DNA from: Imbricaverruca yamaguchii | Taxonomy: Eukaryota > Arthropoda > Thecostraca > Neoverrucidae | Direction of reading: 5' to 3' | DNA length: 64,000 nt | Assembly (NCBI GenBank): GCA_034440575.1 | Contig: JAOTOL010001602.1 | Span: 2,204,501-2,268,500, forward strand | Shown here: in pieces, positions 3,081 to 50,815 of the stretch | Layout: every line of letters begins with the position of its first letter | How positions within the stretch are numbered: the first letter of the stretch is position 1 | Notes under the pieces: model-generated | Database searches by the model: none | Told to the model about the DNA's origin: nothing | Seen by the model: only the letters and a program-made list of their open reading frames with translations | Translations under genes and position numbers: made by a program

Positions 3081-3089
3081 CCGTTAGCT

Positions 3090-3155
3090 AGTTAGTTATG
3101 GGGATTTACGGGCGCGTTGAACATATTGCGAGCATTCTCTATGCGTCCTACTCAA
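3090..3155 (-). mobile_element. Solo 3' hairpin of the RNase-H LINE family (diverged)
   Basis: On the minus strand, ggacgc and gcgccc stems are followed by a cgtaaatccccataac spacer and an aactaactagctaac tail, the order seen at the LINE 3' ends at 11.15 kb and 22.81 kb. The loop is longer than in other copies. No clear target-site duplication is visible. Confidence 0.45.
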
Positions 3156-3992
3156 TTCTTAAAGTATGCGCAGGCATGATACCATGGAACATTCATTTTA
3201 TTTTGATGTGCAAATGGCCGATAATTTCTGCAAAAAGGCTTAACATGACAATTGAAGCCTGGTTGTCCAGCATGCCCGAATATGTTTGAAACCTAACAGT
3301 AGTCCAGTGTCCAGTGTCATAGCAGTGTTATATGCGTTTCGTAACGTAACTTCTGCACAGGTAAATGTTGTACAATAAATGTTGTTCAAGTTATTGTACA
3401 AGTGGCATATTGTATAAGACATGGCTGTCACACGTAGCAGAAAGCAACAGGTGGCATAGCAGCGGTCAATCTGCAGTCGAATCACCTAATGTCTCCTTGA
3501 CTTACGCTTTGACGATGGCCACTCTCTCACTTTCGGTTTGGGTGTCTTTAGCGTGCTCCTAGGTGGCGCGTTTCACATGTTTTGCCACTTGTGATATGTA
3601 AACAAAAAACACCTACGAAGTAATCGGTTGCCGAAAGAGAGAAGGCAGGCTTTGTGTCTTGTAAACTCACAGCTTGGCCACAGCACCGACCAATCTGCTC
3701 TTGCAGTTCCGACATGGCTTGAAATCAAACATAACTTTCCAGCTTCCCAGCTCCCCTACATGCGGTCAGATGGATAAGAATGTTGCTCAGTAGCCGATGG
3801 CATAGATATAACTTAGTCAATGCTAAAATAATGTTCAAGAGTGTCTCTGAATACAACAAATTATGATTCGTTGCATACCTCAACAAAACACACTGTATAT
3901 GCCCTGGTCAGCTCACATGTACATACACACAGCCCTGGGTCCGTAGAAGAATGCGAACAGCATTCTAATATATGAGTGCACAGTCAACACCC
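3156..3992. other. Unassigned sequence
   Basis: I see no gene, RNA or repeat in this stretch. Confidence 0.4.
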
Positions 3993-4032
<40 letters not shown>

Positions 4033-4033
4033 T

Positions 4034-4090
<57 letters not shown>
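3993..4090. repeat. (GACA)n microsatellite
   Basis: About 24 near-perfect copies of the tetranucleotide gaca/caga, interrupted once by catacaga. It gives poly-(CLSV)-type open frames on the minus strand that are artefacts. Confidence 0.97.
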
Positions 4091-4423
4091 GAGGGAGATA
4101 GATGTGTGAACTGGGGTGTCGCACTCAAGTACTGTTGATGCAGTGACATCAATTTCAGGCCACACCAATTGCCGAGGGAGGTCAGTAGTTATTCTATGAC
4201 ATGCTCCTAACTCTTCTCTGGCTCTCGTCGAAGAGTCTCCAGTTCCGGACCGAGAGCGGAAAACACCGGTCCGTCCATTATCTGTGGAGAGTCCGCGCCG
4301 GACGTAAAAACAGCCCGATAACCGGCTCTGCCTGGACATTGACACAGCTTAAGAGAGGAAAGCAGCCCTGGGTGCTGTCGTCTCAAGGCCAGTAGTGGCA
4401 CGTGAGCCTCAACGGAGTGGTTA

Positions 4424-4476
4424 GTTAGTTATTAGGGTTTTTTTGGCGCATCAACTGCATTGGTTGTACAGCGTCC
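4424..4476 (-). mobile_element. Solo 3' hairpin of the RNase-H LINE family
   Basis: On the minus strand: ggacgctg, a loop with acaaccaatgcag, then gatgcgcc, followed by an A/C-rich spacer and a taactaactaacc tail. The related strings gcctcaacggag before it and cctcagcagggag after it could be a decayed target-site duplication, but I do not rely on that. Confidence 0.55.
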
Positions 4477-4944
4477 ATAGCGATCAACCTCAGCAGGGAG
4501 ACTGGATGCTGACGTTTAAATGCGTCAATGGCAACACGCAGAAAACAAATGTACGGTGCACCATACTCAGAGTACGTTTCCCGCTTTTACTCCAACCACT
4601 GTGTCCCACAAATGCATAATATATCTGCGACTTAATCAGTGAACGACATAGAAGCAGAAGCGTCTTCTGATCAGCACGCAGGAAAATACTGAAACACATT
4701 TGAAAATATTTAACGCTCGAAAGCATGTGTCAAAAAGTATTTTGAAATACGCTTTATAATCCAAGCGAGAGTTAAAATGCACTCCTCGTGCAAAGTTGGA
4801 AAATGGCTGCGTGGGCACCCACTGCCCAGAAAGCCTTAATTCCAGTTCACCACCTGGCTGATTTACACGAAAAAATGCAATGCCACCGTTTTTGCTGTGG
4901 ATAATCTAAAACCACTGAAAGCATATCACTTCTCGAACTTCACT
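4477..4944. other. Unassigned sequence
   Basis: No recognisable gene or repeat. Confidence 0.4.
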
Positions 4945-5166
4945 ACAGCCCTATTGAGGGGGCGGGGACGGCTGAGTGGTTAATGTGTTGGGTTCTGGGT
5001 ACCAAAGGTCTCTGGTTCAACACTCGCGCCGCTCGGGACATTTCCCAATACCGCGGCCCACAGGCGAGACAGTGTAGGCGGCGTCATTAGCCGTAAATAT
5101 GCATAAAGTGCGTCGTGAACCACCCAATAAACAACAAACAACAACAAATAAACAGCCTTGTTGAGG
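4945..5166 (+). mobile_element. tRNA-derived SINE (family A), full-length, with TSDs
   Basis: The head resembles a class II (Leu/Ser-like) tRNA: box A gacggctgagtggttaa, and box B tctggttcaacac. A body follows with cccaataccgcggcccac, then gcggcgtcattagccgtaa and an aacaacaaacaacaac tail. The element (4960-5151) is flanked by acagccctattgagg (4945-4959) and acagccttgttgagg (5152-5166), a 15-bp target-site duplication with two mismatches. Other copies lie at 36,023 (+) and 48,532 (-). Confidence 0.88.
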
Positions 5167-6111: not shown

Positions 6112-7085
6112 ACGGCTCCCGCCATAGCGGCAGCGTGGTCGCCACACCACAGCGGCAGCGGCACTCTTCCCGGCACCGTTCCCGCCACGGCCATAGCGTG
6201 GTCACCTCCCCGGCACCACTCCCGCCACAGCCACAGCGTGGTCACTCTCCCCGGCACCGCTCCCGCCACAGCCACAGCGTGGTCACTCTCCCCGGCACCG
6301 CTCCCGCCACAGCCACAGCGTGGTCACCTCCCCGGCACCGCTCCCGCCACAGCGTGGTCACCTCCCCGGCGCCGCTCCCGCCACAGCCACAGCGTGGTCA
6401 CCTCCCCGGCACCGCTCCCGCCACAGCCACAGCGTGGTCACCTCCCCGACACCGCTCCCGCCACAGCCACAGCGTGGTCACCTCCCCGGCACCGCTCCCG
6501 CCACAGCCACAGCGTGGTCACCTCCCCGGCGCCGCTCCCGCCACAGCCACAGCATGGTCACCTCCCCGGCACCGCTCCCGCCACAGCGTGGTCACCTCCC
6601 CGGCACCGCTCCCACCACAGCCACAGCGTGGTCACTCCCCGGCACCGCTCACGCCACAGCCACAGCGTGGTCACCTCCCCGACACCGCTCCCGCCACAGC
6701 CACAGCGTGGTCACCTCCCCCGGCGCCGCTCCCGCCACAGCCACAGCGTGGTCACTCTCCCCGGCACCGCTCCCGCCACAGCGTGGTCACCTGCCCGGCA
6801 CCGCTCCCGCCACAGCGTGGTCACCTGCCCGGCACCGCTCCTGCCACAGCCACAGCGTGGTCACCTGCCCGGCACCGCTCCCGCCACAGCGTGGTCACCT
6901 GCCCGGCACCGCTCCCGCCACAGCGTGGTCACCTGCCCGGCACCGCTCCTGCCACAGCCACAGCATGGTCACTCTCCCCGGCACCGCTCCAGCCACAGCC
7001 ACAGCGTGGTCACCTGCCCGGCACCGCTCCCGCCACAGCGTGGTCACCTGCCCGGCACCGCTCCCGCCACAGCCACAGCATCGTC
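6112..7085. repeat. 34/40-bp GC-rich minisatellite (~1 kb)
   Basis: More than 20 head-to-tail units of a ~40-bp monomer (ccacagcgtggtcacc, tccccggcaccgctcccg), with a 34-bp variant lacking one ccacag. The array stays open in all three plus frames for hundreds of codons, giving one apparent 508-codon frame (5640-7166). It is low-complexity, repeat-driven and lacks splice or domain evidence, so I annotate it as a repeat. Confidence 0.95.
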
Positions 7086-7137
7086 ACTCTGCCGGCCGAC
7101 CCGCACAGCTCCCGCCACGGCTGCTTCCTCGGCCCGG

Positions 7138-7984: not shown

Positions 7985-8575
7985 ATGGTGTCATACAGTC
8001 ATAAAGTGTTCAGACTTGATAAGAGCCACAAGGGCCCGTCCGGGTTAAATCTGTAAAGGGAAGATACCATAGCCTTGGCAAAAAAGGCACTCATCACCCC
8101 ATCAAACACCACATCACTAATTCCAAAGAATCCATCCACCAACATCCAAAACGCTCATCAATGTCTATCCACCTTGCCTTTGCAGCTATATTCACTCTAT
8201 ATCATGTAACACATGTGCCTTGAATGCCATACTAATAATTTACAGACTCCATCCATGCCCGCTTAAAGGAGCCGGTATAGTACACTCCTACTACCTTGCA
8301 TAAATTTCACTCCATCCACCACTACTTAAGCTCAAAATAAGATTTTGCAGTCTAAAAATGTCGTCCACCATATTTTGTAATACATTCAATGAGGGACTCC
8401 ACAGAACATCAGCAGGCAGGCTATTCCACTGATCAACAATCCTTTGACTGAAGACCTGTTGTCGCTTAACTGCCCTACACCTTGATTTGTTTAACCTGAA
8501 TTGTGACCCCTATGGGATAGTCTCAATAAAAGGGCATCATTCAGATTGACATGATCTGGCCCTTGTCACCACGAT
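7985..8575 (-). mobile_element. Decayed CR1-clade LINE, 5'-truncated 3' end
   Basis: On the minus strand the sequence translates in broken frames to the C-terminus of a CR1-type ORF2 protein (…QQVFSQRIVDQWNSLPAD…, then PSLNVLQNMVDD). It ends with gggcccttgtggctctta and tttatgactgtatgac. The intact CR1 at 57.1-61.9 kb has the same terminal gggcccttgtggctc and TTTATG-type octamers. Stops and frameshifts make it a dead fragment. Confidence 0.7.
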
Positions 8576-8709
8576 AGATCCCACCAGGATCCGCCACTCT
8601 TCAGCTGAAGATGTCCCTTAGACAGAAAAAATGTGTCTGTTTGGCAGGTATGACGGCTAGTCGACTTCACAAGCGGGGTCGCTCCGGAGAAAAGGAAATT
8701 CCGGAGGAA

Positions 8710-10372
8710 TGCCACCCAGTGGCGTAGCCAGTATTTTCACCTTCGCCAGACCGGGAGGGGGTGAGGGGTGCTCTTGATAGCTCATCAACCTTCCAATCTG
8801 CGTACGCTTGGATTAAATGGAAAACACCATTTGGGCGCTCTAGTCATGGAGAGCCGTAGCATACCTTATGTTTACATTTTGACTGATGATCATGCCACCA
8901 GAGATGAATATTCGGACCTCGATTTGGATCCCTAGAAACCGTTGAGAAGGCAGAAAATGCTTTTCATCGACATTTTTTTATCGACAATTAGCATAGATTA
9001 GTACTGATGATGGCGAAAAAGGGCCAGGACGGGGTAAACTCAGGTCAATCAGAATCAGGCCTGAAAACCAGCTTCCGAATAATGCATGCTTGAGACAAAT
9101 GTAAAATGCACTTGGCAAACCAATGCAGCCTAAAGCTGATATCACTTCTAATTGCTTCATTTTAGACCATGCAGAGGTTGCTAAAGGTCATAATTTGTCA
9201 GCCAAGCGACGTTACCTTTGCCCTTAGAAAATCTCAACATACAGGTATCTGCTCCTTTCAACGGAAGCACTCAGGCCAACTGTTTGCATTTTATTGGCAT
9301 CCGAAAATTGTAAGGTCATGTCACCTCAAAACATTATGGTCACCTCAAGTAAGTTCAAGCTTACCATCTCCGAAACTTGACTTATGAAAGTAATTTTGCT
9401 CCAAGAAAATCTGCGATAACGCTAGCACATCCTCGTAAACTGTACAGTTTCTGACCTCGTGAATTGAATTCAGGTCACGCTGAGACAATGGTCAAATTAC
9501 TAAACCAATTCATACAACCATCATCTAAGTGTGCTGCCTGTAAGGTAATTTCCAAGGAAAAGTCAACTCAGGTCAAATAAAGTCAGAACACATGAGATCA
9601 GATCATCTCAGATCATTCACTAGCCATCTAATGTCATGTTGCACGGCTTAGACAGAGCTGAAACCGAATTCAAATATTACTTGGCGAGGAACAGTGACAT
9701 TGTGTACAAATGGCATTTTGTAGGATGTATCTGATAAGTGGTCTGATCCGATGTCATTAACCTTCGACACATAATTTAACCAGAATGATCATTGTATAGT
9801 CGTTATGATTTTTGACTTGAAAAGTACCCTAATTTGAAGTTTTCCCACATAATGTAATACAAACACAAAATTTACCTGACATGAGGTCGGTAACCTTGAC
9901 CTTAACTAAAATTTCAGATGAGGTTCGTCTTGATGAAAGGGGAGCAAGCTCTGAGTTTGGTGCTTATCTGTTCCAACTACTCGAAATGGCGGCACTTCGA
10001 ATATTCTCGAAAATCACCCACTTTGACCCGTCCCAGGTCAATGGCCTTTGATAACCTGGACGTGACAATTTTACACGATGTGCAAAATAGATGTAAAGAA
10101 GCTATTGAAAGCTGTAGTATCTCTGCTCCTATTCATTCGGTCGCCATCACGGACAAGCCTGAGGATGGGGTTCTCGAGAGTTCTCCGGCCGACGAAGGTT
10201 AAGTGACCAGTCCCCCCAAAATATTATTACACCGCGAAAGCTCGCGCCTCACGGAGTGCACCGAAAATGTCTCGTTTGATTAGGATTAAAACCCAAAATG
10301 TAACGATCATCTAGTGCATTTATTTTTGTTCAAGAGACTCTATCCTCCGTCCCTTGGCTACGCCTCTGATAC
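8710..10372. mobile_element. Possible DNA transposon or MITE with CAGTGGCGTAGCC-type ends
   Basis: The left end reads cagtggcgtagccag (about 8715) and the right end, reverse-complemented, reads cagaggcgtagccaa (about 10,355-10,371), forming an imperfect terminal inverted repeat. I see no transposase between them. An unassigned open frame (9918-10202, +) has no recognisable domain. The two ends could belong to separate insertions. Confidence 0.35.
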
Positions 10373-11134: not shown

Positions 11135-11174
11135 AGGAGTGTATACGTGGTGGTGGTGGTGGATTGGAGTTTAA

Positions 11175-11207
11175 GGGCGCGTCGACATCTAGGGTCATTT
11201 TGCGCCC
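11175..11207 (-). other. LINE 3'-terminal hairpin
   Basis: Minus strand: GGGCGC, a ~21-nt loop, then GCGCCC, followed by ttaaactccaat and a (CCA)n tail. It lies at the exact 3' end of a TSD-bounded LINE, as expected for a reverse-transcriptase recognition stem-loop. Confidence 0.75.
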
Positions 11208-11483
11208 ATAACTGAATTGTAATCAATTTACGGTATTGCTATCATAGCTTGCTATCCATCTTCACCGGTGGGGGTATATTACGTCAAGGCGAGCTTGGCG
11301 AATGAGCATAAAAATATTCCAAGAAGCCACAACCTCAGAGTCGTTCCCTATTAGGATACGTAAAGAAGAGTCGGTGTTCAATCGTCATAGAATCTAGCGT
11401 CGTAGAGGATCGAGCAGTGTACAGCCAACTAAAACAAGGTACACGGTAAGCGGGTTAGAACAGCGCGGACATAGGGGACGGTC

Positions 11484-11567
11484 ATCACCAGTAAGCATTG
11501 GGCGCTAAATGACCTTGTAGTCGGCGCGCCCTTAAGCCCAAATAATCAATCAATCACCAGTAAGCAT
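11484..11567 (+). mobile_element. Solo hairpin retroposon, 54 bp, nested in the LINE, with 15-bp TSD
   Basis: The insert 11,499-11,552 begins tgggcgc, has a gcgccc closing stem, then ttaagcccaaat and an aatcaatca tail. It is flanked by exact 15-bp copies of atcaccagtaagcat at 11,484-11,498 and 11,553-11,567. It interrupts the ORF2 remnant of the host LINE in the opposite orientation. Confidence 0.92.
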
Positions 11568-12339
11568 ATAACCGTCTGTTCCGAACGTATGGCCTATTCT
11601 CAATCGGCAGAGTATTACTTCTTCCCGGCGTTTGGTTCGGTGAGAGGACAGCCACTTTCCTAGTGTCGGTTTTAAAACCCTGAGCCTACTACACTTGGAA
11701 TTCCAGATTCGTTGCCATTCTGACCGTTTGCTTGATATACATATAGTAGGATATATATATCTTGGAGGGAGCCGTACATTGACCACACGGCCATTGCTAA
11801 TGGCATGTTTGGCGGTTATGTCAACAGCTTCGTTTCCCGCGAGTCCAACATGACTAGAAATCCAGCAGAACACGATATTTCTTCCGATGTCATGCAAGTA
11901 TTTTACTACTTTCATAATCCTCCGAACAAGTCTGTTATCCTGTTTAAAGATGTCCAGTGCCTGGAGACTGCTCAGAGAGTCTGTGAAAACCACATGCCTT
12001 GTGGACCGGTATTTCTGTATAAAATAGAGGGCCTGCAGAATGGCATACAGTTCGGTAGTAAAAATCGAGGTTTGCGTCGAACTCCTTGTCTACTTACGTA
12101 AGCACACCCGACACCAGAGATCGACTTTGAGCCGTCTGTGTAAATGCGCGAAAAGTCGTGATATTCGTGTATTTTCTCCAATGCTAACGTGCGGAGTTCC
12201 TCCGGGTTTACCTGCCCTTTCTTTGAGCAGGTTAGAGTCATGTCAGTTTTCACTGGGACAGCATGCCAAGGGGGAGTGCTAGGCGTGATTACACGTGCTA
12301 TGGAACGCGGCCGGATATTACATTCTCGAGGAGTGTATA

Positions 12340-12690
12340 AGTACACGGTAGTACAGTGAGTACAGTAAGCACTGCATACTAGTTACTATATAGAACTACG
12401 GCACAAATTTCCTCCATTTCGTTTTGAAAGCTACCTGGCGCCAGGATACTTCTCCGTCGTTCAACATTGACCCGTATCACGAGTCTCGCTTCAGCTGGCC
12501 TCCTGGCTGCAGTGCATTGCACGCAGAATCGGGCGCCATTCTGTCATCGAGTGCAGCCGTCCACCCGTGGCAGCTCGTGGTGACAAATGTCCTACGCAGG
12601 TGATGCGCAGCGTTGCACGGCGTGGCTCGCATCGCCACGAAACCCTGTCTTGGGACACAAGTTAGTGGCGGAAGTTCCGGCACAACACAT
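12340..12690. other. Unassigned sequence
   Basis: No recognisable gene or repeat. Confidence 0.4.
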
Positions 12691-17038: not shown

Positions 17039-17101
17039 CTCAGGAAAGTAGGCGACTTTAGGGCGCATCGACCATGTTGATCACATAGCTCAGGGAAGTA
17101 G
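17039..17101 (-). mobile_element. Solo hairpin retroposon, 37 bp, with TSD
   Basis: The insert 17,052-17,088 (plus strand: gactttagggcgcatcgacc, then atgttgatcacatag) is flanked by ctcaggaaagtag (17,039-17,051) and ctcagggaagtag (17,089-17,101), a 13-bp duplication with one mismatch. It matches the loop and 3' stem side of the LINE terminal hairpin, so it is shorter than the ~55-bp copies. Confidence 0.78.
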
Positions 17102-22405: not shown

Positions 22406-25400
22406 CTGCCGACAGAACCACAGCCTGACGACAACGCCACCGGCCACGACTGGCACCGCCGCTGCTACAGTGGCTGTTCCGCGCCTGGGTCGGGACAGCA
22501 CCGGCAACACGCGGCAGGCGGGAAAATGGTGGTGTTAGAGGGAGAGAGAGCTAGGACGGTTGGGATGGTGCTGGCGACGTGTGCTATGGTTGGGGATGGA
22601 GTTCAGGATGCCACGATACTCCCCGAAGCCGGACGTTATTGCAAGGACGATAATGGTGAGAGCATATCAATTATTGATCCGGAAGGTACATATAATTATA
22701 ATGCATCAGAAAAATTAAACAACTAGCGCAAGCAAAGGAGCCAAAATTTAGCCAGAGCATGAGGGGCTTACCACTTGCCACGATGGTCGATATTATAAAG
22801 CAAGTAGAATTGGTTATTTGGGCTTAGGGACGCTTGAACTGCTTCGGTCATACAGCGCCCGTAACAATGTTAGATTGACAGCTTAGGATGATTGGTGCTA
22901 ACAGTAGTACACGACCATTCAGAATACGGGCAGATATCAGTGAAACAGTGAAAGAGAAGAAGCAAGCGCAAGCAAACATCAGTGGAACAGTGAAACGGGA
23001 GTAACATCAGTGAAATAGTGGAACAGAAAGAGCAAGCGCGAGCAAACATCAGTGGAACAGTGAAACGGAAGTAACATCAGTGAAACGGTAAAACTAAAAG
23101 AGCAAGCGCGACCAAACATCAGTGGAACACTGAAACGGGAGTAGCGTCAGTGAAACGGTGAAACAGCAAGAGCAAGTGCAAGCGAAAATCAGCTGGAGCG
23201 ACATGCCATGGTTCCGAGCGTACAGTGCTATGCGTCAGTGAGGTGTGTAAATCGCTTTGAACATCGGATAAAAAGCGAAACATTTGTCCCGAAGTTACCG
23301 CGCGCGAGTGGTCACCAAGGAGGTCACGGAGTGACGGCGACTGTGCGACTCCAAAGAACCGTCTTCGGTCAGCGGCAAGCAGAGGGATCGAGATGAAAAC
23401 GTGACGCACAGACAGTGGTGCGCGACATCGAGGGCAGTTTGGCCTATTCTCTCCACAAAGAAGATGGTGGTGTGTTAGATGAATGTGCCTAAGCCGAAGG
23501 CGGCAGAGCACGACCTCGTCTCGCCTCGTCTTGTGATAGGACGAGGCCCACTGCAAGTCCGTAGTTTGCTGTACAGCAAACTGTTCCAGCTATTCTGCCA
23601 TTTTTCCAAAACAAAAGTCGTGATTGAACGGTGATGTTCCCTCGCAGGGAGCGGCATAGCCCGCCGGTATGTGTCTTGTGCGGCACGTTTCGCGGCAACA
23701 TCAGCTGTCTCATTACCCACAATGCCGACGTGGCTCGGAATCCAACAGAGGGTAATAGCCTTCCCAGCTTGGGCCAGTGGTGTGATACGTCGCAGAACAT
23801 CCTGTACAATAGGGTCAGATGGGTTAAACTGCAGTAGAGCCCCAAGACTGCTGAGCGAATCACTAAAAATGACATGCAAGGTATCACGACATACTTCTAC
23901 AGAACTGAGCGCCTTGATGACAACCAGCTCTGTGTACACCGTCGCATGTGGAGGTAGGAAAAAAGATCTTGACAAAGATCTAGGAACAAATGCACTGCCC
24001 ACACCTGCATCAGACTTAGATCCGTCTGTATATATCGGGACATATCCCTCGAATGAGGCTGTGTTCCAGGGCACGTGGCAGACGGTCTTGTGGCGTAGCA
24101 TCCACCTTCCTGACCGAAGAAAGCGACATGCCAATTTTCGTAGTGGTCACTTGCCATAGTGGCATCTGCGCAAAATTGGACTGCATGATTCCATTCAGTC
24201 GTATCCCACTGTCCTCAAAGATCCTACGCATACTAACGCAAAAGGGTATGGAATGCAGAGTGCGTCCTCGACAGAATGATGCGATTAGGTGACGAGAGAA
24301 AACGTGCGCATATGTAGGATGGCCGGGGAATTGACGCAGCTTGCAAGTGTAACGCATCCCAAGCATTTCACGTCTGAGCGAAAGTGGCGGTTCATGAACT
24401 TCATCCAGAAGGCTTACAGAAGGCGAAGTGCGAAAAGTGCCGGTCACAATACGGAGGGACAAGTGGTGCACAGTGTCCAGTACGCGTTTGCTTGTTGTAC
24501 ACGCACTGTCATACACAAAACATGCATAGTCCAGTTTTGCTTGGACGAGGGAGCGATACAACAGCAGCATGGTTTTTCTGTCTCCTCCATGGGACGTGCG
24601 TGCAACCATCTTCAGTAGGTTTACCGATATGAAACATTTTTCTCCCGAAGTGCTTTGAAATGTTCGCTGTAAGTAAGACGGGTGCCAAAAATTACTCCTA
24701 AAAACCGGACAGCGAGCTGAAAGGGAATGGGTTCCCCATACAGCTGGATAGATGGGTCTGGACAGCTTCGACGACGCCGACAAAAACGTATCCTAACGGT
24801 TTTTGCAACAGCGAACCGAAGCCCGTTCTCTGAGCTCCAGTTTTCCAAGTGGGATACTGCTAGCTGCAACTGCCGGGCCATCGAGGGCGCACTGGATGTG
24901 CAGCACCAAATTGCAACAGCATCCACGAAGTGACCTGCTAATCTGTCGAGGAAGGGACTCGCATATATCATTAATCATGATGGCAAAGAGTGCAACGGTT
25001 GGCATAGTGCCCTGAGGTACTCCTTCCGTCTGTGGATATCTCTCCGACAGGTGGTTTCCAATATGTACGCGGAAAACTCGTCTCGACAAAGTTCTGGACG
25101 AAGAGTCCCATGGAGCCACAGATCCCATACCTGAATGCCTTCTTGAGAATGCCGCAGCGCCAAGCGGTGTCGTATGCTCCTTGAATATCAAAGAGCACTA
25201 CACCAACGTGACGATTCTGGTGGGAGGCTGCTCGTACCACGGTGCAAATAGTTAAAAGATTATCGACAGTACTGCGGTTTTCCTAAAACCACACTGTGCG
25301 TTATTTAAAATGTCATGTTCCAGAGACCATGTCAGACGCACACTAACCATCTCCATCAGTTTGCAGAGTGATGATGCTAAAGATATTGGTCGGTAGCTCG

Positions 25401-28400
25401 CCGGTCTAAGCTATCCTTACCGGGATTGGGGTCATAGTAGCTTCAAGCCATGTTGATGGAAAGTCGCCTTTGACCCAGAGGGATTTCAGTGTCTTCAACA
25501 TAGTAGCAAGTGCACGTGATGGAATGTGTTTCAGCTTGTCGTTATGTATTTGGTCGGGCCTTCAGAAACGCTTCGAAGGGTTCTAATGGCAGAAAGCAAC
25601 TCATCCATAGTGAATGGTTCGTTATAGCACGTCTCACGGGTGGAAAAGTTCAATGGTTTTCTCTCAGTCTGCTTTGCGGCGGGCGAATACATCATTTTCA
25701 TTGTTGCACCGACATCGACTGTATATTGTGCGGGCCATCTCATTGGTCACGTCGACCGGGTGAGTGACGTCACGACCGCCGACCCGTAGTGCTGGCAGAG
25801 GGACAGAGCTGAATTTGCCGGCGATTCGTTTGATCCTGGACCGGACCTGAAAGACGGGCGTGGTGCGATTCAGCGTGCTAACGTAATCCCCCCATGAGGC
25901 ACGCTTTGCCTCTCGAATAGTTCGCCGTGCGAAGACCCTAGCCTGCCGGAAGGCGATGAGGTTGGCCGTGCATAAAGCAAGTAGGAAACCAGCAGCAAAT
26001 TAGTCGGTTATTTGCGCTCTTTACTCCTTTCCATCCAGTAATGTAACATTACAAAATGCCACAAGTTGCACGGGAGATAACCCAAGAAATGCAATAAAGA
26101 TGTGCAACGCATGCAATGTCATTCAAGGCTTCTGAGAACGTCGGCTAGGAGCTGTACAATGTTACGACATGCTAACGATGTTCCGGATAATTGCGACATT
26201 AGTCAACGAGAACAGCATAATTCATAAGGCATGCTCATCAAAAGAACTAAAAGAACTCACAGGAGGTATTTGGACGTCGTTGTCTCACCCAGGATAAAGC
26301 CATCATGGCCGCGGAGACGGTGATGGCGGACACAGGAAGGACGACTGCTGGCACCCATACGTTTCATGCTATATTTCTGCTAACGTGATCAGGTTGACCA
26401 TAACTCCATGTGATACTATGGCTGACATAACCGGGTTCACCATGCCTCCATGTCATAGTTCGGCTGACAACCAGGTTGACCATGCCTCCATGTTATACTT
26501 CGGTTGACAACCGGGTTGGCCATTCATCCATGTCATACTACGGCTGACATAACCGGGTTGACCATGCCTCTATGTCATACTACGGCTGACAACCGGGTTG
26601 GACATGACTCTACTCGTGCCTGAGTTGGCAACTCTAGTTAAACCCGCATGATCTGAACATATTTCAAGCTTGCGTGCCATACGGCCGCCTGCACCGTGAT
26701 CAAGCTTAGAGACATGACGTGAGTCGCCAGCTACCATTAGTGAAGAGTTGGAGAATGGATCACGGGGTTCCCATGCACTACATGTGGAGTGACTGGTTAC
26801 GAGCAGGAGTACCTTCTAAGCGATGCTGTATCGAACACAGAAAGCGATGCCGACATGAGCACTCATAAGACGCGAAGATGCTGGAGCACACATTACAGAC
26901 ATTCTGCACCCACCAACAAAATAGTGAACTGTTGTTAATCTGGTGTGGGCAACCATTCGTATTAAGAGTTAGTCATTTCAGCTTTGGGGACCCACTGAGC
27001 GCCAAATCTCGTCTCCCATCTACACCAAACTGCAGGAAGCCCAAGAACGTTGATTTGACTTTACTGATGATTGTTATCGACGATTCGGCGACCCCTTCAC
27101 CTAGAGATAAGCACAAACACACTTGGTTTGTCTCGCCACCTACTTGTACTGTCAATTGACGCAACAAAAGCAGACTGATGTGAATCAGTCTATGTTCGGT
27201 TGGGCGCCTCCTGGTTCGAAACCCACCGATAGTCATGAGCACACTTTGGCGAGGCGTTCCGGGTCAGTAACCTGGGACGCTGAGGACCACCGAAGCCACG
27301 GTCCAGAATGTCGGACGACCACGTGTGGTCAGGTCAGTGCGGCACGATAGTCAGGTCAGTGTGGTGCGACGGTAAGGTCAGTGTAATAAGCTGGTCAGGT
27401 CAGTGTGGCACGGTGGTGAGGTCAACATGGCACGGTGGTCGGGTCAGTGCGGTACGGTGGTGAGGTCAGTGTGGTACGATGGTCTGGTCAGTGCGGTACG
27501 GTGGTCAGGTCAGTGTGGCACGGTGGTGAGGTCAGTGTGGTACGGTGGTGAGGTCAGTGTGGTACGATGGTCTGGTCAGTGCGGTACGGTGGTCAGGTCA
27601 GTGTGTTACCGCAGTCAAGGCAACGGGGGTATCGTGGTTAGATCAGTGGAGGCACCACTGTGATTATGTTAGTGACCATGGTGAGATAAGGGTGGTGCTG
27701 CTGTCGGGTTAGTGAGGGCATCGTGGTCGGAGCGGCACCGCCATCAGGTCAGTGGGCCACCGCCAGCCACACGGTCAGCGCCAGCGCATGCAGGACACAC
27801 ACGGTCACGCGCGGCGGACTCGGTCTAGCGGCGGCAGCGGAGGGGAATGCAACAGACGGACCGGCACCGCCACACCAGTAGTACAAACACACAGCTGCCC
27901 AGCGTGGCCGTGTCAGCAGTGTCAGCAAGATGCGGCGGCGGCAACACGCTACCTCTGCTGCCCTGCGGCGGCGGCGGGTCGGCGGGACGGGCGGCGATCC
28001 TGGCAGACACGGCGGTGACCGGTGGCCGGGCGGTCGCACGGGCGTAAGCGCCGGCTGGAAATGGTCGACATCAGGACACGCTCTCGTCACCCTGGCACCG
28101 ACTGCGAGGTGTGAGTGTTGGTGTTGGACCTAGGTGTCCAACTTCTTTTGGTGTTGGGCCTAGGTGTGAGCTGGCATCAGATCAGTCGCTAGCGATTACG
28201 TGAAGGGCAAACTATGGACAAAAGCTAAATGTGTCAACGTAGGGTGACAGACGGGGCAGTTATGCGGTTAGCCTCTCCACCAAACAGCACTGATGACGTC
28301 AGTGCAGATGATCCTGTTGATGCTGACGCCGTGGACCGTGGAGTCTGGTGACGCAGCAGAGTCGTGAGAGACACCTCGCAGACCAGCGGAACGTCAGCAC

Positions 28401-30385
28401 AACCTCCTCCAGCGCGGTCACCAACTTTCTCACCTCGTCTCTCCAGTGAGCTCCGCGCTGTCTCATCGCACATTTCCGGCGCATCTGGGCGCCTTCTCAC
28501 CAGTCCGAGGCGCGCCACCGCCCGCGTCTCACCGCCTACTCTGGTGCAGCAGGCCGCAGTCTCACCTCATCTCTCCGGCGCAGCTCGGCGTTGATTTCGT
28601 CTATCAGACTGGACCCGTTGTCAGGCGACCGACCGGCGGAGAAGCCGGCGAGTGGGTCTGTCGACGCGGCCGGCAAGTCCGCCGCGCCACCTAGCGGACT
28701 GTCGCTCGACGTCCTGAGGAGCAGCGCCAACAGCGTCAATCCGGCCAGCCGACATGCTGCAAAACGACATACTTATACTCCAAGCATGGGCGCCACATAA
28801 CGAGTAGCCGTTGATGCGCCCCAAAGCCCAAATAATCAAACATATACTCCAAGCACGAGCTAAATGTCTGATGTGCTCTATACAGGCAACGCGGAATATC
28901 CCGTTAGTTTCTCGGACAGCTCAGCACACCGCGTTGGTCGGCAGAGCAACAATGGCGGCTGCCGCATCACCACCAGCTGCATCCCTCCCAGCTGCGGTCT
29001 CCGGGAACAGTGTCTGCCGTCGTCCACTCACCGGTCGGCGGCCGACGCCGGACCGTCACCGTTCGGTGCAGGGTCGGGCAGCTGCAGCAGCGACGGCGCC
29101 GACGTGCCCAGACAGGCCGGCCGCGGCGTGGCCGGCGACGACGGCACCGACCGGGTGAGCGCCGGCGTATCCACCGACAGGTACGTGCCGGTCGTGTGCT
29201 CGCGCGCCAGCCGGCGGCCGCACAGTACGGCCCAGCGGCGCAGTCGCGGCAGGCCGCCCTTCTCCGGGCGGCGCTGGCAGCAGGCCGCCACCAGTTGGTA
29301 CCCGTCGCCGGTCTCCCGCAGCCGCTCCAGCCGCTCGCCGACAAACTGTCCGCGAGACGGGCATGATGGGACATACCGGTCACAGTTCAACACGATAAAC
29401 TCGCCGACAAACTGTCCGCAAGACGGGCACGAAACATACCGACCACAGTTCCACATGGAAACAACGCCGAATGTTTGTTTGTACTGTAAGGTGGCAAGAA
29501 ACCTTCGCCATTGCCACAATTGCAGCGAACAGGATGTGCTTAGAAAGACCGACGACAAAATGATTGGAACTGAAGGGCCGGCTTAGAGGCTTCAGACAAT
29601 TTTAGAAGTCAATGAAAGGTATCATATTTTCTTGCAAAATATACCCACGCAGTGGAAGGGACCACATTGAACTGTACACCCACCTAGTAAGTTGGGACGC
29701 AGTGTAACCGGACCAAAAACAGCAGTCAGTGCGAACATACCACATGCACAACGCCAGTGCGTCCACACTGCAAACACCAGCTGTCTCACCCGCTCAAACA
29801 TCTGTGTCCGCAACAGAGAGCGCAGGAATGGCCGCCGCCCGGACGGCTGACTGGCCAGGAACGCCTCCTCGTCAAACACCGGCGAGCCGTCCTCAGGTGA
29901 CTGCCTGCAGCACAAACGGCACTCCTTCGAGACGACATTGACACAACAATCACGCGCCACGCAAACAATTGATCCCAGCACGCGCAGGCCATACGCCACA
30001 AATGAAGTTACAACTGATGCGAGACAAAGCCAAAGCTTAGGATGAACAACATAATCGATTCTGGCGTGCGTAGGACGACCTAAACAGGTTCCAGTTTGGC
30101 TGCCAGGCTGGCAAAGCTACGACTCTTCCGTCGGAAAACGCCCGCTAAACACCAGTGCGTCCCACTGCGGAACCCCAAGTCAGGTCGGTCCTTGAAATAT
30201 TAGACTGAGATTTCAGTCATTGGAAACCTTGAAGTTGATAAACCTGTTCTCAACGATGTTCCGTGGTGCCCGATAAAAAGTCTCAGCTGAGCTGCTTTTG
30301 TTCCAGTCAAAATTTAAGGTCGACCCAATTGCCTTAAATTTGATTCACAGCACATGCTCTCCCATACAACCGTGCAAATACATGC

Positions 30386-30550: not shown

Positions 30551-33500
30551 GGTTGGATGAAATCACGTTTGAGCATGTAGCACATGCAAGTGAGCTGGTC
30601 CATCAAGTTCAACAGAGCAGAGTACGCACCTGATGCCGGCCCGATAGCCCCCGACCAGTTGACAGACGAAGTTGTGGAAGGCGCGGGACACGTCGTCTCC
30701 GCCGGCAGAGTGCTTCAGGCTGCGCCGTAGCGTTGACACCTGTGCCGCACATACATACAGTCACAACCAAACCGTGCCTGACATACATAGAGGTCATACC
30801 CCAACTGTGCCGCACATGCCTGTGGGTCATAACCCAACCGTGACGCACACATCTACAGGTCACAAACCATTTGCGCCGTACATACGTCATACAGGCTAGT
30901 GCAGTGTACGGCATATAGCTACAGGTCATAACCCACATGTGCCGTGCATACGTTATACAGGCTAATGTAGTGTATGGCACATATCTGCAGGTCAAACCCA
31001 CATGTGCCGTACATATGTCATACAGTCTAGTGTATAGTGTACGGCACATGCCTACAGGCCATAGCCCATGTGTCGTACATATGTCACACAGGCTAAAGTA
31101 CAGCATATGGCACACACCCAGGTAGGCCATAGCCAACACGTTCCATGCATGCATACCGGAAAAGTACAGTGCACCGCACATACATGCATATCATAGCCAA
31201 CCTGAGCAGTGTTGGATTTTCACTTTCGGTCTTGGATTCGAGTGTAATTTTTTTGCTTGCCAAAGTATGAAGTGTATAATCATGAGAAGCACTATGTTAT
31301 GGGGTGTATAATATCCCAGTTTGCCAAATTATGGGGTGTATGTTAAGCACCAGTAACGGAGTATATACATTTTATATATAACGAAGTGTATAAATTTTGA
31401 AAAATGCAGTGATGTCTCCTGGAATGAAGAATAAAACCCAGGGGCCTCGGTAGCTTAGATGGTGGAACGTGGAACTCTAATCTGCGGCCGGCGGCATTTG
31501 CAGAGTCCACCCACGACCAATCGGTGTGATATAGGGTGGCGGCGCTATGCCACCTTGCGGTTGCATGTGTCGTAAAATAACCCGATAATTCTTCTTCCTC
31601 AAGAATAAAACGCCTTTAAGTCATTTGTTAGGTTCTTATCATAGTGTCTCACGACAACCAGATGGGGTCCACCACACATCGTCGTCTGAAGTCATCCACG
31701 TTACGTGAATGACTTATAAGGCAACTTCCTGAGCAATGGTAGAGAAAATGATCACAAAAGTATACTTAATCGATGTCAACGAAGTTTATATATCAATACC
31801 CACTCCTGCATAGGTACCAAACACACAACTAATACAAATTCACAACATATCTCGAGAGCAGGACGTTCGTACACCGCTGGGTCTAAAATGGGAGGGCCTA
31901 AAATAGTACTTCGGGATATGGGTTTCGGAATATATAATGGTTCAAGGAAAGTTATACTAAAACAATCCGTCTAAAACTTTTATTCTCTCCACGATGAAAT
32001 TTTCTTTTTCAAATGAGAAAGCTGGGAAAAATATTGAAGTCAATCCTTATTAATATTAAATGTATTTCAATGACTTTTAGTTCATGTCTAGAATGTTTAG
32101 TAGAAGCAAGGAATTCTTGGAAGGATGAAAAGCGACTAGACGGGCGGGAAAATTGCTGCTGTAAAACAGACTATCGTCAAGGACGAGCGGAAATTAGCGT
32201 CTGATTTCGCGCCATGATTGCTATAAAATACTAAAAATGAAAATAAGTTAGAGAAAACTGCCAAGAGAATTACAGGGAACTTTTTTCAATTAATAATAAT
32301 CAGGACTGTGGGAACAAATTAATCATTGGATCGGAATGAGGCTTATAAGAGTGTAGAGGATTAGGTCAACACACGTAAATCTGAATTTGTCCGAGTGGGG
32401 AAACCTCGCGGTCGGAGGGCATGAATACAACTATTCCCGCTTGCTGATGAAATTCGGAAACAATATAAGTCATGAAATCGAAAGAAGGTGAAATTTTGGT
32501 CTATGGGTCTTCATTTGGAGCAAAGTGTTGGCAGGTTTTAGAACGTTTTGGTACCATTCAGGCAATTTTCATGGAGAAAATCCTTCAGATATAGTTTATA
32601 TATATCGCTCTGACTGCTTAATAATATAAATATGAGCGGTTTTATCCATCCCAATTGATGCAAAACATATCATTATCCAAGGAACCAAGAAGAAATGCAT
32701 TATCCATGGCTTTTCGTGGCAATGGTTCAAATAGCTCCGGCCGGAGTGGGAGATGGAGAGCGGTGAACTCATTGAATCCAAGAACGCGGTCGGGGCTGGT
32801 GAAGGTGAATTCTATATTTGGTTACGGAGCGTAGTGGTTTTTTATTCAACGAAGGATTTTCTTTAAAGCTCTTTGCTGCTATCCGGATGGAATTGACTGC
32901 GTGTTTGGCTCGAGGAATGAGAGGTTGTATTATCTGACTATGTAGGTACCTACCTACTTACCTATATCAAATATCTTCGCAGTAATTCGAGTTATTGATT
33001 TGAATAAACCAAAGCTGTAAGCTTGTGTTTGTGACGGATATCTTCAGATAATACAAGGAGCAGGACATGATAATATCAATTGCTGCGATGTTTGTCCCCA
33101 AGCGTAGAAATGAACAAAACTGATTGCTTTGCTTTTGTCTGGAAAATCTTCTTTTAACTTACCACATTTTGAAGCGTGAATGTTTTTCTTTCAAAATGGG
33201 GCTGGGCCTCTTCAGTGCACATTGACTGCAGATATTATAGATATGTATGCATTCAAGCATTATATGTGCATTCATGAAATGTTCAGAATATTAGGTGCAT
33301 CCTGTCCCCATTCTCCATTGAATACCATTATACTTTTAACATTTCTGGTCTGTGACTTTCTGAATGGACAAATTTGCAGTTTAAGGTGATTTGATTTCTT
33401 GAAATTTATTTTTCTGAATGATTATGAATGTGTTCATAATGTAGGTACTTACATGATGTGACCTCACATTTTTTGGCAAGTACAGTTGGGCAGCAAAATA

Positions 33501-36500
33501 ACACCAAAAAGTGGCTCGGGTTTGGTTGGGAAATATGCCATGAAATGTGATGTTAAAAGAAGAAAAGCTGCAGCCTAACTGATGCAAGAAAGCCTTTTTT
33601 AATAAAAATTTTCTAAGCAATTTTTCCTTTAACAAATTAAAAGTAAATGGCCTATTCTAACCAAACAGCCTATGGTAGCCCGGGTGTTTTTAAAATTCAA
33701 AACTTTATTTTATTTTATAACACTGAATGATTCCGAAAGGAATTTGATAAATGGATAACTTATTAAAAAATAATATAGCATAACTTAGCCAAACCTAATA
33801 CCTTTGTATGCTTCATGGAGGCAAAATGTGTGAAGATGTAAAGTAATAGTGCCCATGACAATTCCTATGCTGTAGCAAACATGGCTCATATCCACCGTAT
33901 TTTGGAGATTTGGGGAAGTGCTACACTTTGTGGCTTACCAGTTGTGTGGATGCCACTCTAGTTTGATGTTCATCCATACATTCTTCTGGGCACATCTGGA
34001 CATGTTCTGAGGTTTGTCCACAATGGAGAACATACACATGAATGCATTGGTGGCTGTTTATTAATTCACCTGCACCTCACCAGAAATCGCACATGCACAA
34101 ATGGAATGTTATAGAATGGTATGGAAGTGGAATGTTCAGTTGATTAATATCATATTCGACTGCAGTGATCCATATTTTGTCATCCATTATCATATTTTGT
34201 ATCACTTGTGATACAAATAACTATATTCTTCAATGTATTTTTTGTATCTGCTCTTTAATGGCCTATACCCAATAACAATGTATTATCTATTATACTAAAC
34301 TTTTTCCTAACTAATTTCGTTATACTATTGTATAATGACATTGTGTTTGTGTAGTATGTCTTATCAATGGAGTGTATTTTTCGTGTATATTCTTTGATTA
34401 AAGTTCGCTTTTGTGAACCTGAGTCATACTTACATACAGACTATATCATATCAACATCACACACACATGAAAACTATAATATGCCTGTATCGCACAAACA
34501 TACGAGCCATAAAACTCACGTCATACACATACATACTGGTTATAGCACACATGTACCGAACATACTAGTTGTAGCACACCTGTACCGAACAAACATACTG
34601 GTCGTAGCACCCATGCACTGCACATGCATACCGGCCATAACACACATGGTTGCACATTCACACAGATTCACATATTCGCACTACACCCGCAGTACACATT
34701 GTATAGGTCATGTCATGTCTGCACCTCGCACATGCTCACATGCATATACATTCACACCGGGCAGCGGGGTTGGTGATTATTATTGGAGTTTAGAAGCGCA
34801 TCGACTGGATCGGTCATGTAGCGCCCGGTGGGGTTGGTTCACACCGCCACACGGACGCATCGGGCGGATGATGAGGTGACGACAGTCGGTGAGACGAGAG
34901 TAACGGACAACTGAGCACAGCTGTGTACATCCTCACTGCCCACACCCAGTTAACTCCTTCACCAGGTCAGCAGGTGGCACCCACAGGTCAGTGTGATATC
35001 CTGCTCTCTCCCTCTCTCTCTCCCTGGTTCTCTCACCAGGCGGATCCTGCGAGTTACGGTGCAGTGGTCCCACCTCGCCAGTACGTCTGTAGTGAAACAA
35101 TTAGACATTCCCTCCCGTATGTGTTCGATTGGTGAGTCGAACACATACGGCCCACAGGTCGTGACGTCGTGACATAAACGCTCCTCGGCAGACAGCGTTC
35201 ACAGGCAGCCATGTGGTGACATGCCCTGCTCCGCTGCCATATCAGCAGTGTAGTGACCTGAGTCCTGCCTCACCATGTCAGCGGGCAGCGCCTGCAGGTC
35301 GTGGTGGGGCGTCCTGACACTGCCGGTGTCCGTGGCCACCACCACGCAGCCGTCGGCCAGCTCGGCCGGCGCGAGGCGGGACACGACGGCGGCCGGCGCG
35401 CCCGCCAGGAACGACACGGGCGCCGCCAGACAGCCGCTCAGTGCCGCCGGCACCACCGGCAGGAAGATGCGCTGCCACCACAGCGGGTACAGCAGCGCCT
35501 GGGCAGCCTGCGCCAGGCGCACAGCGTCGTCACAACGGGTATACAGTAGCGCCTGGGCAGCCTTATCAGGCGTACAGTCACAGCGGGTACAGCAGCGCCT
35601 GGGCAGCCTGCGCCAGGCGTACAGCGTCGTCACAACGGGTGTACAGTAGCGCTTGGGCAGCCTTATCAGGCGTATAGTCACAGCAGGTACAGCAGCGCCT
35701 GGGCAGCCTGCGCCAGGCCTATAGCATCACAGTGGGTACAATAGCGCCTGGGGAGCCTTATCAGGTACACAGTCACAGCGGGTTCATCAGCGCCCGGGCA
35801 GCATGTGCCAGGCGTACGACGCCACAGCGGGTACAGAGTCAATAGTCACGGAAGTTACAGGTACAATCACAGTAACTGGAATCGCAACGGGAGCAGCGTT
35901 TTGTGGGCAGTGTGTACCAGTGGTACATAGTTGTAAAAGGTAGTCACCGTAGCCGCCTACAGCTTCGCATCGAATAATCACAAATACAGTCGAAAAAAGC
36001 GCAATGTCATAGAGTTACAGGGAGGGGGTGGCCGAATGGTTGAGGTGTTGCGCTCTTGGCACCAAAGGTCCCGGGTTCAATACCCGTACCAACAGGGACA
36101 TTTCCCAATCCCGCGGCCCACCGGCGTAACAGTCTGGGCGACGCCATTAGCCGTTAATGTGCATAAAGTCTGTCGTGAGGCACCTAACAAACAAACAAAA
36201 CAGTTATAGGGCCAATACCGAGGTGGACTGCCTAGTAGGACATACTCGAGGGTCCACATAGTGGACCCAAATAACCCGACCAGATGGAAGTGAAAAGTTG
36301 TCACGGTCATCCAGAATGGCATGAAGGCCAGATCCATGTCAGCACAACACCACCCAGTGATAAATTATTCGTGAAAAAATGGCGGGATATACCACGTTCT
36401 GAACATCGAAATGACACCCATCCCAACGATGTACCGACATCGTACTTCATCGTGAGTCATTATGAAGTCTCAATATATAATTTCTAACAGTCTCTTGCTG

Positions 36501-47939: not shown

Positions 47940-49125
47940 GATCATTAAAAGTACCAAAGGGTCTTTAATTGTAAAATATAGTATTTAGCAGTATGAGGGG
48001 CCTTCCAGTCATAAGAAATCATTTGGCAGTTTCATGGGTCCTTCAACACTAGCCATGGGCCTTATACCATTTACTGAGTGCCCTTTAATTGTCAAATGGC
48101 CTCAAAAGCAGCACTGCATCCAACACAGGTAGTAGGGCCATTTGTATTTGTTGGTATGTAAACAAGTCCTTCAGCAGCTATAGACCCCTCTCACAGCCAC
48201 AGGCAGCCATCTGCCATTACAGAGTGCCTATGAGAGTCACTAGGGGCCCCGTTGAATGTTCAGTGGGTGATCTGATACCAACAAAAGACCTTTTGAGAGC
48301 CACAGAGGGCCCTTTCATAGCTACATATGGCCATGTGAAAGAAACAATGGCATTTTGCTGGTCAAACTTAACACATAAAATTCCAGAGGACTATCTGGAA
48401 GATACAGAAGGCTCTCCAAAATTTGCATCCAGCATTCTGACAGTGTTGGAGTTTCTTGGACAGTCAGAGGTGACCATTTGATAATTGCATCCTTTGACAT
48501 ATACAGAGAGCCTGATGAAAGCTACAGAGGTTTGTTTGTCTGTTTATTGGTTGGTTCACGACACACTTTATGCACATTCACGGCTAATGGCGCCGCCCAC
48601 ACTGCTTCGCCGGTGGGCTGCGGGATTGGGAAAGCTACAGAGGTAGACATTTTAAATTTACAACAGGTATTGCTGGTAACAAAGAGTCCTGTAACATGCA
48701 CACATGATGCCATTAATATGTAGAGCAAGTGGGACAGAGAGCCATCTGTCAGTGATATTCAAAGGGTCTTTAGCTATCTACAGATGGCTATGATTTGGTT
48801 GAAGCACCCTGAAACTACAATGACTAACTAACAGATGGCTAGCTTACAGATACATAATATTTTTTTATAAGTATGGGGGACAGTTCACTAGCTATAATTA
48901 TATGGTTCTCTGACAGCTAGAGAGTTCCCTACTGGCTAGGAGTGATCCTTTTGTATGTTCTAGAGGGTCATGTGATGGATATAGAAAGCCCCCAGTGAGT
49001 GAAACAAGGCCATTGCCACTGAGGGGCCTTAAAAATGGAGTCTCATTTCATAGTCATGTGGTCCTTTAATAGTTATATTTATACAGGTTCCTATAAATGT
49101 AGATGGTAGATAAGTTTTATGTGAT
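47940..49125. repeat. Highly degenerate ~40-45-bp tandem array
   Basis: Loosely repeated blocks of the type gggccctttcatagctac followed by agatggccatgtgaa recur through the stretch (for example 48,306, 48,500, 48,770, 48,890). It is too diverged for a firm unit. A SINE A fragment is inserted at 48,532. Confidence 0.4.
48517..48644 (-). mobile_element. 5'-truncated SINE family A with 15-bp TSD
   Basis: The insert 48,532-48,629 is the 3' ~98 bp of SINE A in minus orientation (plus strand: ttcacgacacactttatgc, acggctaatggcgccgcc, ctgcgggattggg). It is flanked by exact gaaagctacagaggt at 48,517-48,531 and 48,630-48,644. It lacks the tRNA head, so truncation occurred on insertion. Confidence 0.93.
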
Positions 49126-49913: not shown

Positions 49914-50815
49914 TATACAGAAAGCAGGAGGGGTAATACTTGTAGATTGGAGTTGGGTAGTATGGAAAAATTGTAATATAAAATAAAAAGTAATAAAGGT
50001 AATATGAAAAGCAACATTCAAAATATTTATCTAAAAAATGTAACATAACCTAGCCATCAAGGTGAGAAACTAGTTCTTATTCATTACAAATTTCCAAACA
50101 TTTTTTTTTATCTCAGAAATTGTTAAATGAAATTAGAAAAACTGAGCCTAACCTATCCTATCCTGAACTGCTTTTGAAGAAAAAAACTTCTTATTCCCCC
50201 CAAAAAAACGAATTAAACAAACAAAAACAAAAGTATAACCCAACCAAGCCTAGCCCCTTTGTATGTTTATGGAGGTTAAACTATGTGGAAAACTTAGGTT
50301 AGGCTTGTGGTTGGGTGCAAAAAACAGTATTATTGTAGATGAAGGTAAAATTTGATTTTTTTGGAATTAATAGTGTATTTTAGCATGAAAAGATGTGACC
50401 ACTCATTTTCTCTGCAAATAATTATTTTTTTAGTGATTGCTTATTTGGGCTTAAAGGAGTGCAAACTATGAGGTTATTTAGCACCAAAAAGGATTACTTT
50501 CCAGTTGGCAAAGGAATACATGACCATAACCTTCACTCTACAAATATAGTCAATCCTGTATAATTATCTGAACCTGGTGTCAGACATGATAAACAAGATG
50601 TTCAACACTTCATGCACTCAATTCAATGCTCTTAACATAAAAACTTCATATTTCTGGTTGAATTATATTAATTCCCTCAATACATCCCTCATTACATGTG
50701 TCTGTAGCATTCAATCAATCTAGTTAGGTTAGGTTAGGTTATATTATATCATGGTTTAACACCTATATATTATATATTGTTGCATTACCTAAGTCTAAGT
50801 TATGTTAGGTTAGGT
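49753..50815. repeat. Interstitial TTAGG-type telomere-like runs
   Basis: ttagattaggttaggtt (49,763-49,779), cctaacctatcctatcc (50,151, inverted), cttaggttagg (50,294), gttaggttaggttaggtta (50,723-50,741) and gttaggttaggtg (50,803-50,815). Confidence 0.75.
50433..50486 (-). mobile_element. Solo hairpin of the LINE 3'-end family (diverged)
   Basis: Plus strand: tgattgcttatttgggctta, then aaggagtgcaaactatg, then gttatttagcacc. It matches the tail-plus-hairpin order of the family, with a weakened stem. No target duplication is visible. Confidence 0.6.

Follow-up and report, generated by a model that had tools for sequence, protein, structure and literature searches.

Solo insertions of a LINE 3' hairpin and tail in Imbricaverruca yamaguchii, and the clustering of their 5' ends at the hairpin

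How little of itself can a LINE insert, and what sets the 5' end of so short a copy? The question is raised in compact form by the window considered here (the whole 64,000-nucleotide stretch that was analysed, with positions counted from its first letter). In antisense within a 5'-truncated RNase-H LINE, here LINE1, lies a second insertion (11499-11552, + strand, 69 bits with model R1) that begins at −1, the T preceding the GGGCGC of a hairpin stem, where +1 denotes the first G of that stem. It is flanked by the target-site duplication (TSD) ATCACCAGTAAGCAT at 11484-11498 and 11553-11567 (15/15, p = 0.0003), and this duplicated target is itself LINE1 sequence. The insertion is one of a class of "solos", which are TSD-flanked insertions of the 3' hairpin and tail of RNase-H LINEs alone.

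The parental form of the hairpin is seen at the 3' ends of two resident LINEs. LINE1 (11149-12328, − strand, hairpin at 11175-11207) carries an RNase_H domain scoring 26.7 bits against a cut-off of 25.8 in a profile search, and LINE2 (22808-25971, − strand, 3,164 bp, likewise 5'-truncated, hairpin at 22828-22860) carries one at E=3e-8; the RVT_1 pieces lying 5' of RNase H in LINE2 score below cut-off. An RNase H domain placed after the reverse transcriptase (RT) marks the I-group, or RNase-H, LINEs, and RNase_H scores above cut-off in LINE1, LINE2 and one LINE of the sampled stretch L019. LINE2 is bounded by a 13/13 TSD, CTACTTGCTTTAT (22795-22807 and 25972-25984). The 13/14 TSD of LINE1 (11135-11148 and 12329-12342) was accepted because protein homology ends at that boundary, with several top tblastn matches ending at 12322-12328 and three weaker ones extending to 12343-12421, 15-93 nt beyond it. 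Both 3' ends read GGGCGC-loop-GCGYCC, followed by a short C/A-rich tail; the expectation that both would close with GCGCCC is borne out by LINE1, while the 3' arm of LINE2, GCGTCC, differs by one base. Apart from a chance 15-mer, blastn over 600 bp finds nothing else in common between their 3' UTRs. At both LINE ends, which serve as negative controls, a TSD immediately beside the hairpin is absent (p = 0.48 and 0.84). A protein search with the RNase-H piece of LINE2 returned 51 matches, 47 of them without a name; LINE1 DNA found no match among phage records, nor did two patterns searched in viral contigs.

Several other features of these sequences deserve mention in their own right. Between its RNase H and its 3' hairpin, LINE2 holds a 70-bp minisatellite of 3.7 copies (22936-23197, −). 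The window also contains a nearly complete CR1-like LINE (57246-61914, −), with an RT ORF at 57246-59462 whose protein has a 97% identical relative in JGI data, an endonuclease ORF at 59411-60274, an ORF1 at 60346-61230 with a GDSL-esterase match slightly below cut-off, and a two-copy tandem of 323 bp at 61264-61914. A piggyBac-type transposase ORF (39818-40966, −) matches DDE_Tnp_1_7 at E=2e-74 over an open frame of 383 aa, and a dDENN-domain piece is also present. Elsewhere in the genome, a 4.9-kb LINE that is possibly full length (L019:4674-9579, −), with a perfect 16-bp TSD, sits inside another RNase-H LINE (RT part at 9552-9998, RNase H at 3892-4680) and beside a third.

The LINE 3' hairpin is a covarying two-helix structure, with an outer helix of 6 bp, an internal loop of 4/2 and an inner helix of 4 bp. 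On 33 matches its covariation is 0.288, as against 0.194±0.016 in shuffles, a value reached by 0/500 of these, and sliding the pairing partners by 1 to 3 columns lowers it to at most 0.121; the alignment, having been fitted to the model, biases this result towards structure, and an earlier, unfitted alignment of 10 sequences lends weaker support, its covariation score being reached by 67 of 500 shuffles. In models R1 and R2 and in pair counts, the conserved stem-loop is common to LINEs and SINEs, as in stringent-type tails. The UnaL2 LINE 3' element has an entry in Rfam. No Rfam model, that of UnaL2 included, matches the whole window at gathering score or positions 11140-11570 at E up to 10. 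When both strands of 314 kb are searched by structure only, 83 hairpins with the same arrangement of helices and loop are found. Outside arrays and homopolymers, those with a TSD score ≥9 are window 11500, window 28788 and L002:4038, with L016:3748 and L012:2540 doubtful or repetitive. This search adds no separate significance, as its null is inflated by tandem arrays (5.8% of cross-pairs reach 9). The LINE layout recurs with unrelated letters (CCAGCC/GGCTGG, 6 bp, 4/2 loop, 5 bp) in a hairpin at L008:4597-4628 (+), which lies roughly 500 nt beyond the 3' end of a coding match to an RNase-H LINE and is followed by a CA repeat; the resemblance is no more than suggestive and may be chance, as the rate of 83 in 314 kb predicts ~0.2 hairpins of this kind in the part that was searched.

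The original prediction named five TSD-flanked solo hairpins in the window, and all five hold up, with TSDs at or inside the hairpin in 5/5, four of them individually significant and the one at 37314 borderline. Each TSD score was compared with 3,000 cross-paired flanks, naive TSD nulls being inflated by minisatellites; the latter are abundant, with 51 tandem-repeat rows in 64 kb (for example, 6155-7087). Three copies begin near the 5' base of the stem, as predicted, namely that at 11499, that at 28787-28842 (+, start −1; TSD TATACTCCAAGCA, 13 bp, p = 0.0003) and that at 34775-34827 (−, start −1 to −3; TSD ACCAACCCC, 9/9, or 11 bp with one mismatch, p = 0.0047), for the last of which an equal-scoring 9/9 alternative match ends 11 nt 5' of the stem. 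Two begin within the 5' arm: 37314-37353 (−, start +4/+5; TSD GATCCAGAAGTAC/GATCCATGAGTAC, 11/13, p = 0.051) and 17052-17089 (−, start +5/+6; TSD CTACTTCCCTGAG/CTACTTTCCTGAG, 12/13, p = 0.001). Read in sense orientation, all five consist of hairpin plus tail, with no further sequence. The longer blastn matches among solos, and between solos and LINEs, start at the 5' base of the hairpin or within a few bases of it, the exception being the match of 37354 with 4476, which extends ~12 nt 5' of the hairpin. A further solo, outside the earlier list, lies at 48791-48830 (+; TSD ACAGATGGCTA, 11/11) and begins at about +11, by eye the 5' base of the inner helix; it scores 20.5 with a matrix for the 3' half and just 12.3 bits with R1 (E=0.23).

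Three copies that had been proposed less firmly as solos, at 3090, 4424 and 50433, fare differently, none having a TSD near its hairpin (p = 0.84, 0.84 and 0.23, respectively). The first (3089-3148, −, R1 48.2 bits) is the 3' hairpin and tail of an old RNase-H LINE, whose RNase-H coding is found by tblastn at 3399-3980 (−). The second (4422-4476, −, R1 56.4 bits, no TSD) is possibly a decayed solo. It was considered as a LINE 3' end, an assignment dropped when the copy was found to be nested inside the old LINE, between the RNase-H piece of the latter and its RT piece (4550-4675, one weak tblastn match). The third (50434-50486, −, R1 54.5 bits) is a hairpin with a decayed stem, plus tail, and has no near TSD.

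To place these copies in a wider setting, the window was joined with 27 further 10-kb stretches of the same genome, picked by contig number, for a total of 334 kb; the sample is not random, in that contigs are size-ordered and 20 of these stretches were taken from the very start of a contig. Stretches L001-L025 were searched with the hairpin model and the 3'-half matrix, and L026-L027 with the hairpin model alone. At E<=0.01, where E-values scale with the bases searched, R1 gives 36 matches (33 in 314 kb and 3 in 20 kb), comprising 17 TSD-bounded solos, 8 LINE ends with coding upstream, 1 short LINE (start −60), 5 SINE tails and 5 placed in no class (window 4476, window 50486, L018:9403, L024:1038 and L026:7553). 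The 3'-half matrix adds 2 solos, for a total of 19 in 334 kb, a count that includes window 37354 (TSD score 7) though it is borderline, and that omits the weaker matches at window 49331 and L022:1914. The latter (L022:1914-1949, −) is possibly another short copy: it has a shortened hairpin plus tail and, at −60, a TSD-like match of 11/11, and the sequence around it is locally repeated. Tail-only copies are thus the commonest hairpin-bearing class, at 19 versus 8 hairpins with LINE coding upstream. In the 20 kb fetched after the pattern had been seen, two of the three matches with E<=0.01 are new solos, starting at −2 and +7, both in L027. TSD lengths, entered by hand, are 9-16 bp with a median of 13 for the 19 solos and 13-18 bp for five verified LINE copies.

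The 5' ends of the solos are concentrated at the 5' edge of the hairpin and a short way into it. The 19 starts, several of which were placed by eye to within ±1-3 nt where TSD and element share bases, fall at −10, −7, −3, −2 (four), −1 (three), +1, +4/+5 (three), +6, +7, +11 (two) and +22, so that 9/19 lie at −3 to +1 and 14/19 at −3 to +7. Verified longer LINE copies start at −60, −758, −1121, −3111 and −4851, and the distribution of lengths is accordingly bimodal, with one verified LINE-type start between −11 and −700; the far TSD searches span ~6 kb, over which scores up to 12 are possible by chance. A scan of −60 to +25 yields 15 LINE-type matches with a TSD score ≥9, attained by ~2% of cross-pairs (32/1,500). 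Ten of these 15 start within one 9-nt window, a concentration matched by 7 of 200,000 uniform draws, with three starts set by hand: L013:2771 at 10, by the nearest LINE (scan 4), window 34826 at −3 (scan tied at −11) and L025:8784 at 0 (scan 1). In a narrower test, from −15 to +25, 10/14 starts lie at −3 to +5 (p=1e-4). The two outcomes that would have told against the original prediction, an even spread of start points and solos mostly without TSDs, are both absent from the 334-kb sample. Its suggestion that reverse transcription stops at the stem base captures the pile-up there, but 8/19 starts lie at +4 or beyond, and the boundary is therefore wider than a single point. Nor is this boundary simply the edge of conservation: GTTAT or GTTAC lies directly 5' of the stem in 7/8 LINE ends with coding upstream (window 3148 is without it), and eight solos begin within that stretch.

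An instructive contrast is offered by SINEs of the same genome, which end in the same two-helix layout with a different outer stem, CGACGC/GTGTCG. In the window, one such tail hairpin lies at 31540-31595 (+; R2 48.1 bits), with the SINE starting at −102 and an 11/11 TSD, and another at 46652-46697 (−; R2 54.7 bits), with no TSD score ≥9. A SINE family with a head that looks tRNA-like by eye, and with a tail hairpin similar in layout to that of the LINEs, is also present at 4960-5134 (+), 36020-36194 (+) and 48535-48633 (−); the last copy is 5'-truncated, beginning at −34, and is flanked by a perfect 15-bp TSD. In raw scores, 12 of the 18 SINE-tail matches have a TSD score ≥9 (two of them exactly 9) and 5 have none; L011:8211 was left out of the set, its best TSD match falling within the SINE body. 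Ten of the 12 start at −102 to −130, where the head lies (by eye, several of these heads look tRNA-like), and the others at −34 and −47. None of the 12 TSD-scored SINE tails in the sample starts at the hairpin, as opposed to 19/24 verified LINE-type copies (p=5e-6). The solos share a LINE-like tail with SINEs and have no pol III head (tRNA, 7SL or 5S), and they are not themselves SINEs, because the TSD abuts or overlaps the hairpin and leaves no room for a head.

What process, then, would yield such insertions? In having a LINE 3' terminus and tail and variable-length TSDs like those of their parents, the solos resemble ordinary 5'-truncated LINE copies, and they are very probably tail-only products of target-primed insertion. 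More tentatively, we favor a template trimmed from its 5' side down to the protein-bound hairpin, a reading that is plausible while falling short of probable. The LINE protein would bind the hairpin, by analogy with other stringent LINE proteins, nick the target and copy the RNA starting from its tail. The frequent template would be a remnant, trimmed from the 5' side to the protein-protected hairpin by, for example, a 5'-to-3' exonuclease that halts at the stem. Copying would then reach the end of this remnant (starts −3 to −1) or halt a few bases early (+4 to +11), and the short piece would be joined into the target with an ordinary TSD.

The 5' joints, as judged by eye, fit run-off at a template end for the −1/−2 group and a premature stop for part of the in-hairpin group, albeit in few copies. 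Seven copies starting at −1 or −2 have 0-1 nt in common with LINE sequence at the joint, one of them with a non-matching base, and the copy starting at −3 has two bases that do not match the LINE. The in-hairpin start at L006:9888 has 3 nt in common with the TSD end, and L013:2771 and window 48791 would have 3-4 nt in common with it only on the assumption that two bases have been lost. In the I-group LINE Nimb-2_DR, direct joining is reported for 82% of full-length inserts, and joining via microhomology or extra bases for 95% of truncated ones (PMC4245944).

The principal rival to a trimmed template is abortive reverse transcription on intact LINE RNA, where the enzyme grips the hairpin and many complexes drop off before a processive phase; in a variant, newly made cDNA adopts the hairpin fold itself and separates from its template as the 5' arm is completed. 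In either case the short cDNA is integrated. Such abortive synthesis is a serious possibility. It would account for a scatter of starts across the 5' half of the hairpin and up to a few bases outside it, with almost none further out until hundreds of bases away, and also for the 3-nt joint at L006:9888 and the possible 3-4 nt at L013:2771 and 48791, which resemble the truncated inserts described for Nimb-2_DR (PMC4245944). It is harder to reconcile with the hairpin being a block, in that an RNA hairpin should act at its 3' side and not once it has been copied, or with the SINEs, which bear the same two-helix tail and are uncut there. If the hairpin alone halted the enzyme, SINE-tail solos should exist. 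The SINE contrast favors a template shortened before copying, because LINE messengers undergo messenger decay, but it is not decisive, as the SINEs may rely on the RT of another LINE with different behavior; no CGACGC-type tail is found downstream of the LINE coding regions detected. Human L1 RNA is reported to be a target of decapping and XRN1 (PMC11014359; PMC12140422), and loss of XRN1 lowers human L1 retrotransposition (PMC11014359). As the effect is to lower and not to raise it, any tie of the solos to RNA decay is indirect. The 8/19 starts at +4 or beyond also count against a trimmed template, being unpredicted by a simple protected end, and a bound protein has to be assumed, since a stem of 6 bp would probably not halt an exonuclease by itself. 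On balance the trimmed template is ranked slightly above abortive synthesis, and both may act.

The remaining explanations can be weighed against the same start points and against the relationships among copies. By identity over hairpin and tail, the nearest relative of the 15 alignable solos is a LINE end for 5, another solo for 7 and a hairpin placed in no class for 3; 28788 (85%) and 11500 (83%) are nearest to L019:3788, 34773 (81%) and 37308 (83%) to L012:7295, and L013:2771 (88%) to L023:1860. With nine LINE ends compared, these identities indicate that the solos stem from at least three LINE origins, and some may descend from a solo, as the 7/15 would allow. Such descent, together with the commonest starts being −2 (4/19) and −1 (3/19), near one point, is what one would look for in a dedicated tiny hairpin RNA, made from its own promoter or by precise cleavage at the stem base and spreading as a minimal non-autonomous retroposon. 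This origin is nonetheless unlikely: a promoter would hardly fit into 35-60 bp, the window has no tRNA gene according to ARAGORN, 5/15 solos are closest to LINE ends, belonging to three LINEs, and starts lie as much as 30 nt apart. A further possibility is ordinary 5' truncation at random, after which short copies would survive as nearly harmless; in its favor, longer 5'-truncated copies do exist and short ones would be tolerated. We consider this explanation quite improbable, as truncation is not scattered along the element but places 10/15 starts in 9 nt, and survival would be unable to sharpen a boundary to a few bases. Finally, that the pieces are short, hairpin-forming and TSD-flanked might recall MITE-like DNA transposons with hairpin ends, an idea that can be set aside with near certainty. 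A MITE would have inverted repeats at its two termini and a TSD of fixed length, whereas these TSDs vary from 9 to 16 bp, the hairpin is flanked on one side only by a directional tail, and LINEs terminate in the same hairpin and tail.

Should the trimmed-template reading be correct, a protein-bound remnant of ~55-60 nt could plausibly be the commonest insertion template, in preference to the full RNA; it would arise repeatedly in several LINE families and would have planted 35-60 bp hairpins in the genome by the thousand. Extrapolating 19 per 334 kb gives ~8,000-9,000 solos in ~153 Mb (contigs 1-1010, interpolated), from a small and non-random sample. As solos outnumber LINE ends, they may supply new short insertions in large and so far overlooked numbers, and elements this short are easily missed in ordinary repeat annotation. 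They form a natural archive of LINE-enzyme products in which next to nothing was copied, and their sharp, recurrent 5' ends make it testable whether short LINE inserts come from enzyme fall-off or from pre-shortened templates. That a short hairpin of 35-60 bases is frequently inserted alone means that the machinery often leaves little beyond its own recognition tag. Among the titles and abstract openings of the open-access matches listed, no report of a tail-only LINE insertion was found, which is a weak indication with most subscription journals outside that scope.

The solos may be compared with several known systems. Exonuclease-resistant RNAs leave a structured 3' piece where 5'-to-3' decay halts, and the proposed solo template would resemble such fragments, except that the hairpin here is simple and a bound protein would be needed. 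Like LINE-tailed SINEs, also found in the present genome, the solos are non-autonomous and have a LINE-type hairpin end; unlike them, they are the tail alone, without head, body or promoter. With the truncated insertions of Nimb-2_DR they have in common that they appear as target-primed products with TSDs (here 9-16 bp, median 13; for that element, 10-15 bp in 11/16 genomic copies; PMC4245944), and they differ from 5'-truncated LINEs of that kind in that truncation concentrates at the recognition hairpin and not along the element. The closest parallel in architecture is to UnaL2 and zebrafish ZfL2, stringent-type LINEs of the L2 clade in which a 3'-terminal stem-loop is common to LINE and SINEs and, for ZfL2, is bound by the ORF2 protein (PMC4176376). 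The present system departs from these in its RNase-H LINEs, in a hairpin of 6 bp, a 4/2 loop and 4 bp with no Rfam match, and in having tail-only copies as the commonest hairpin-bearing class of the sample.
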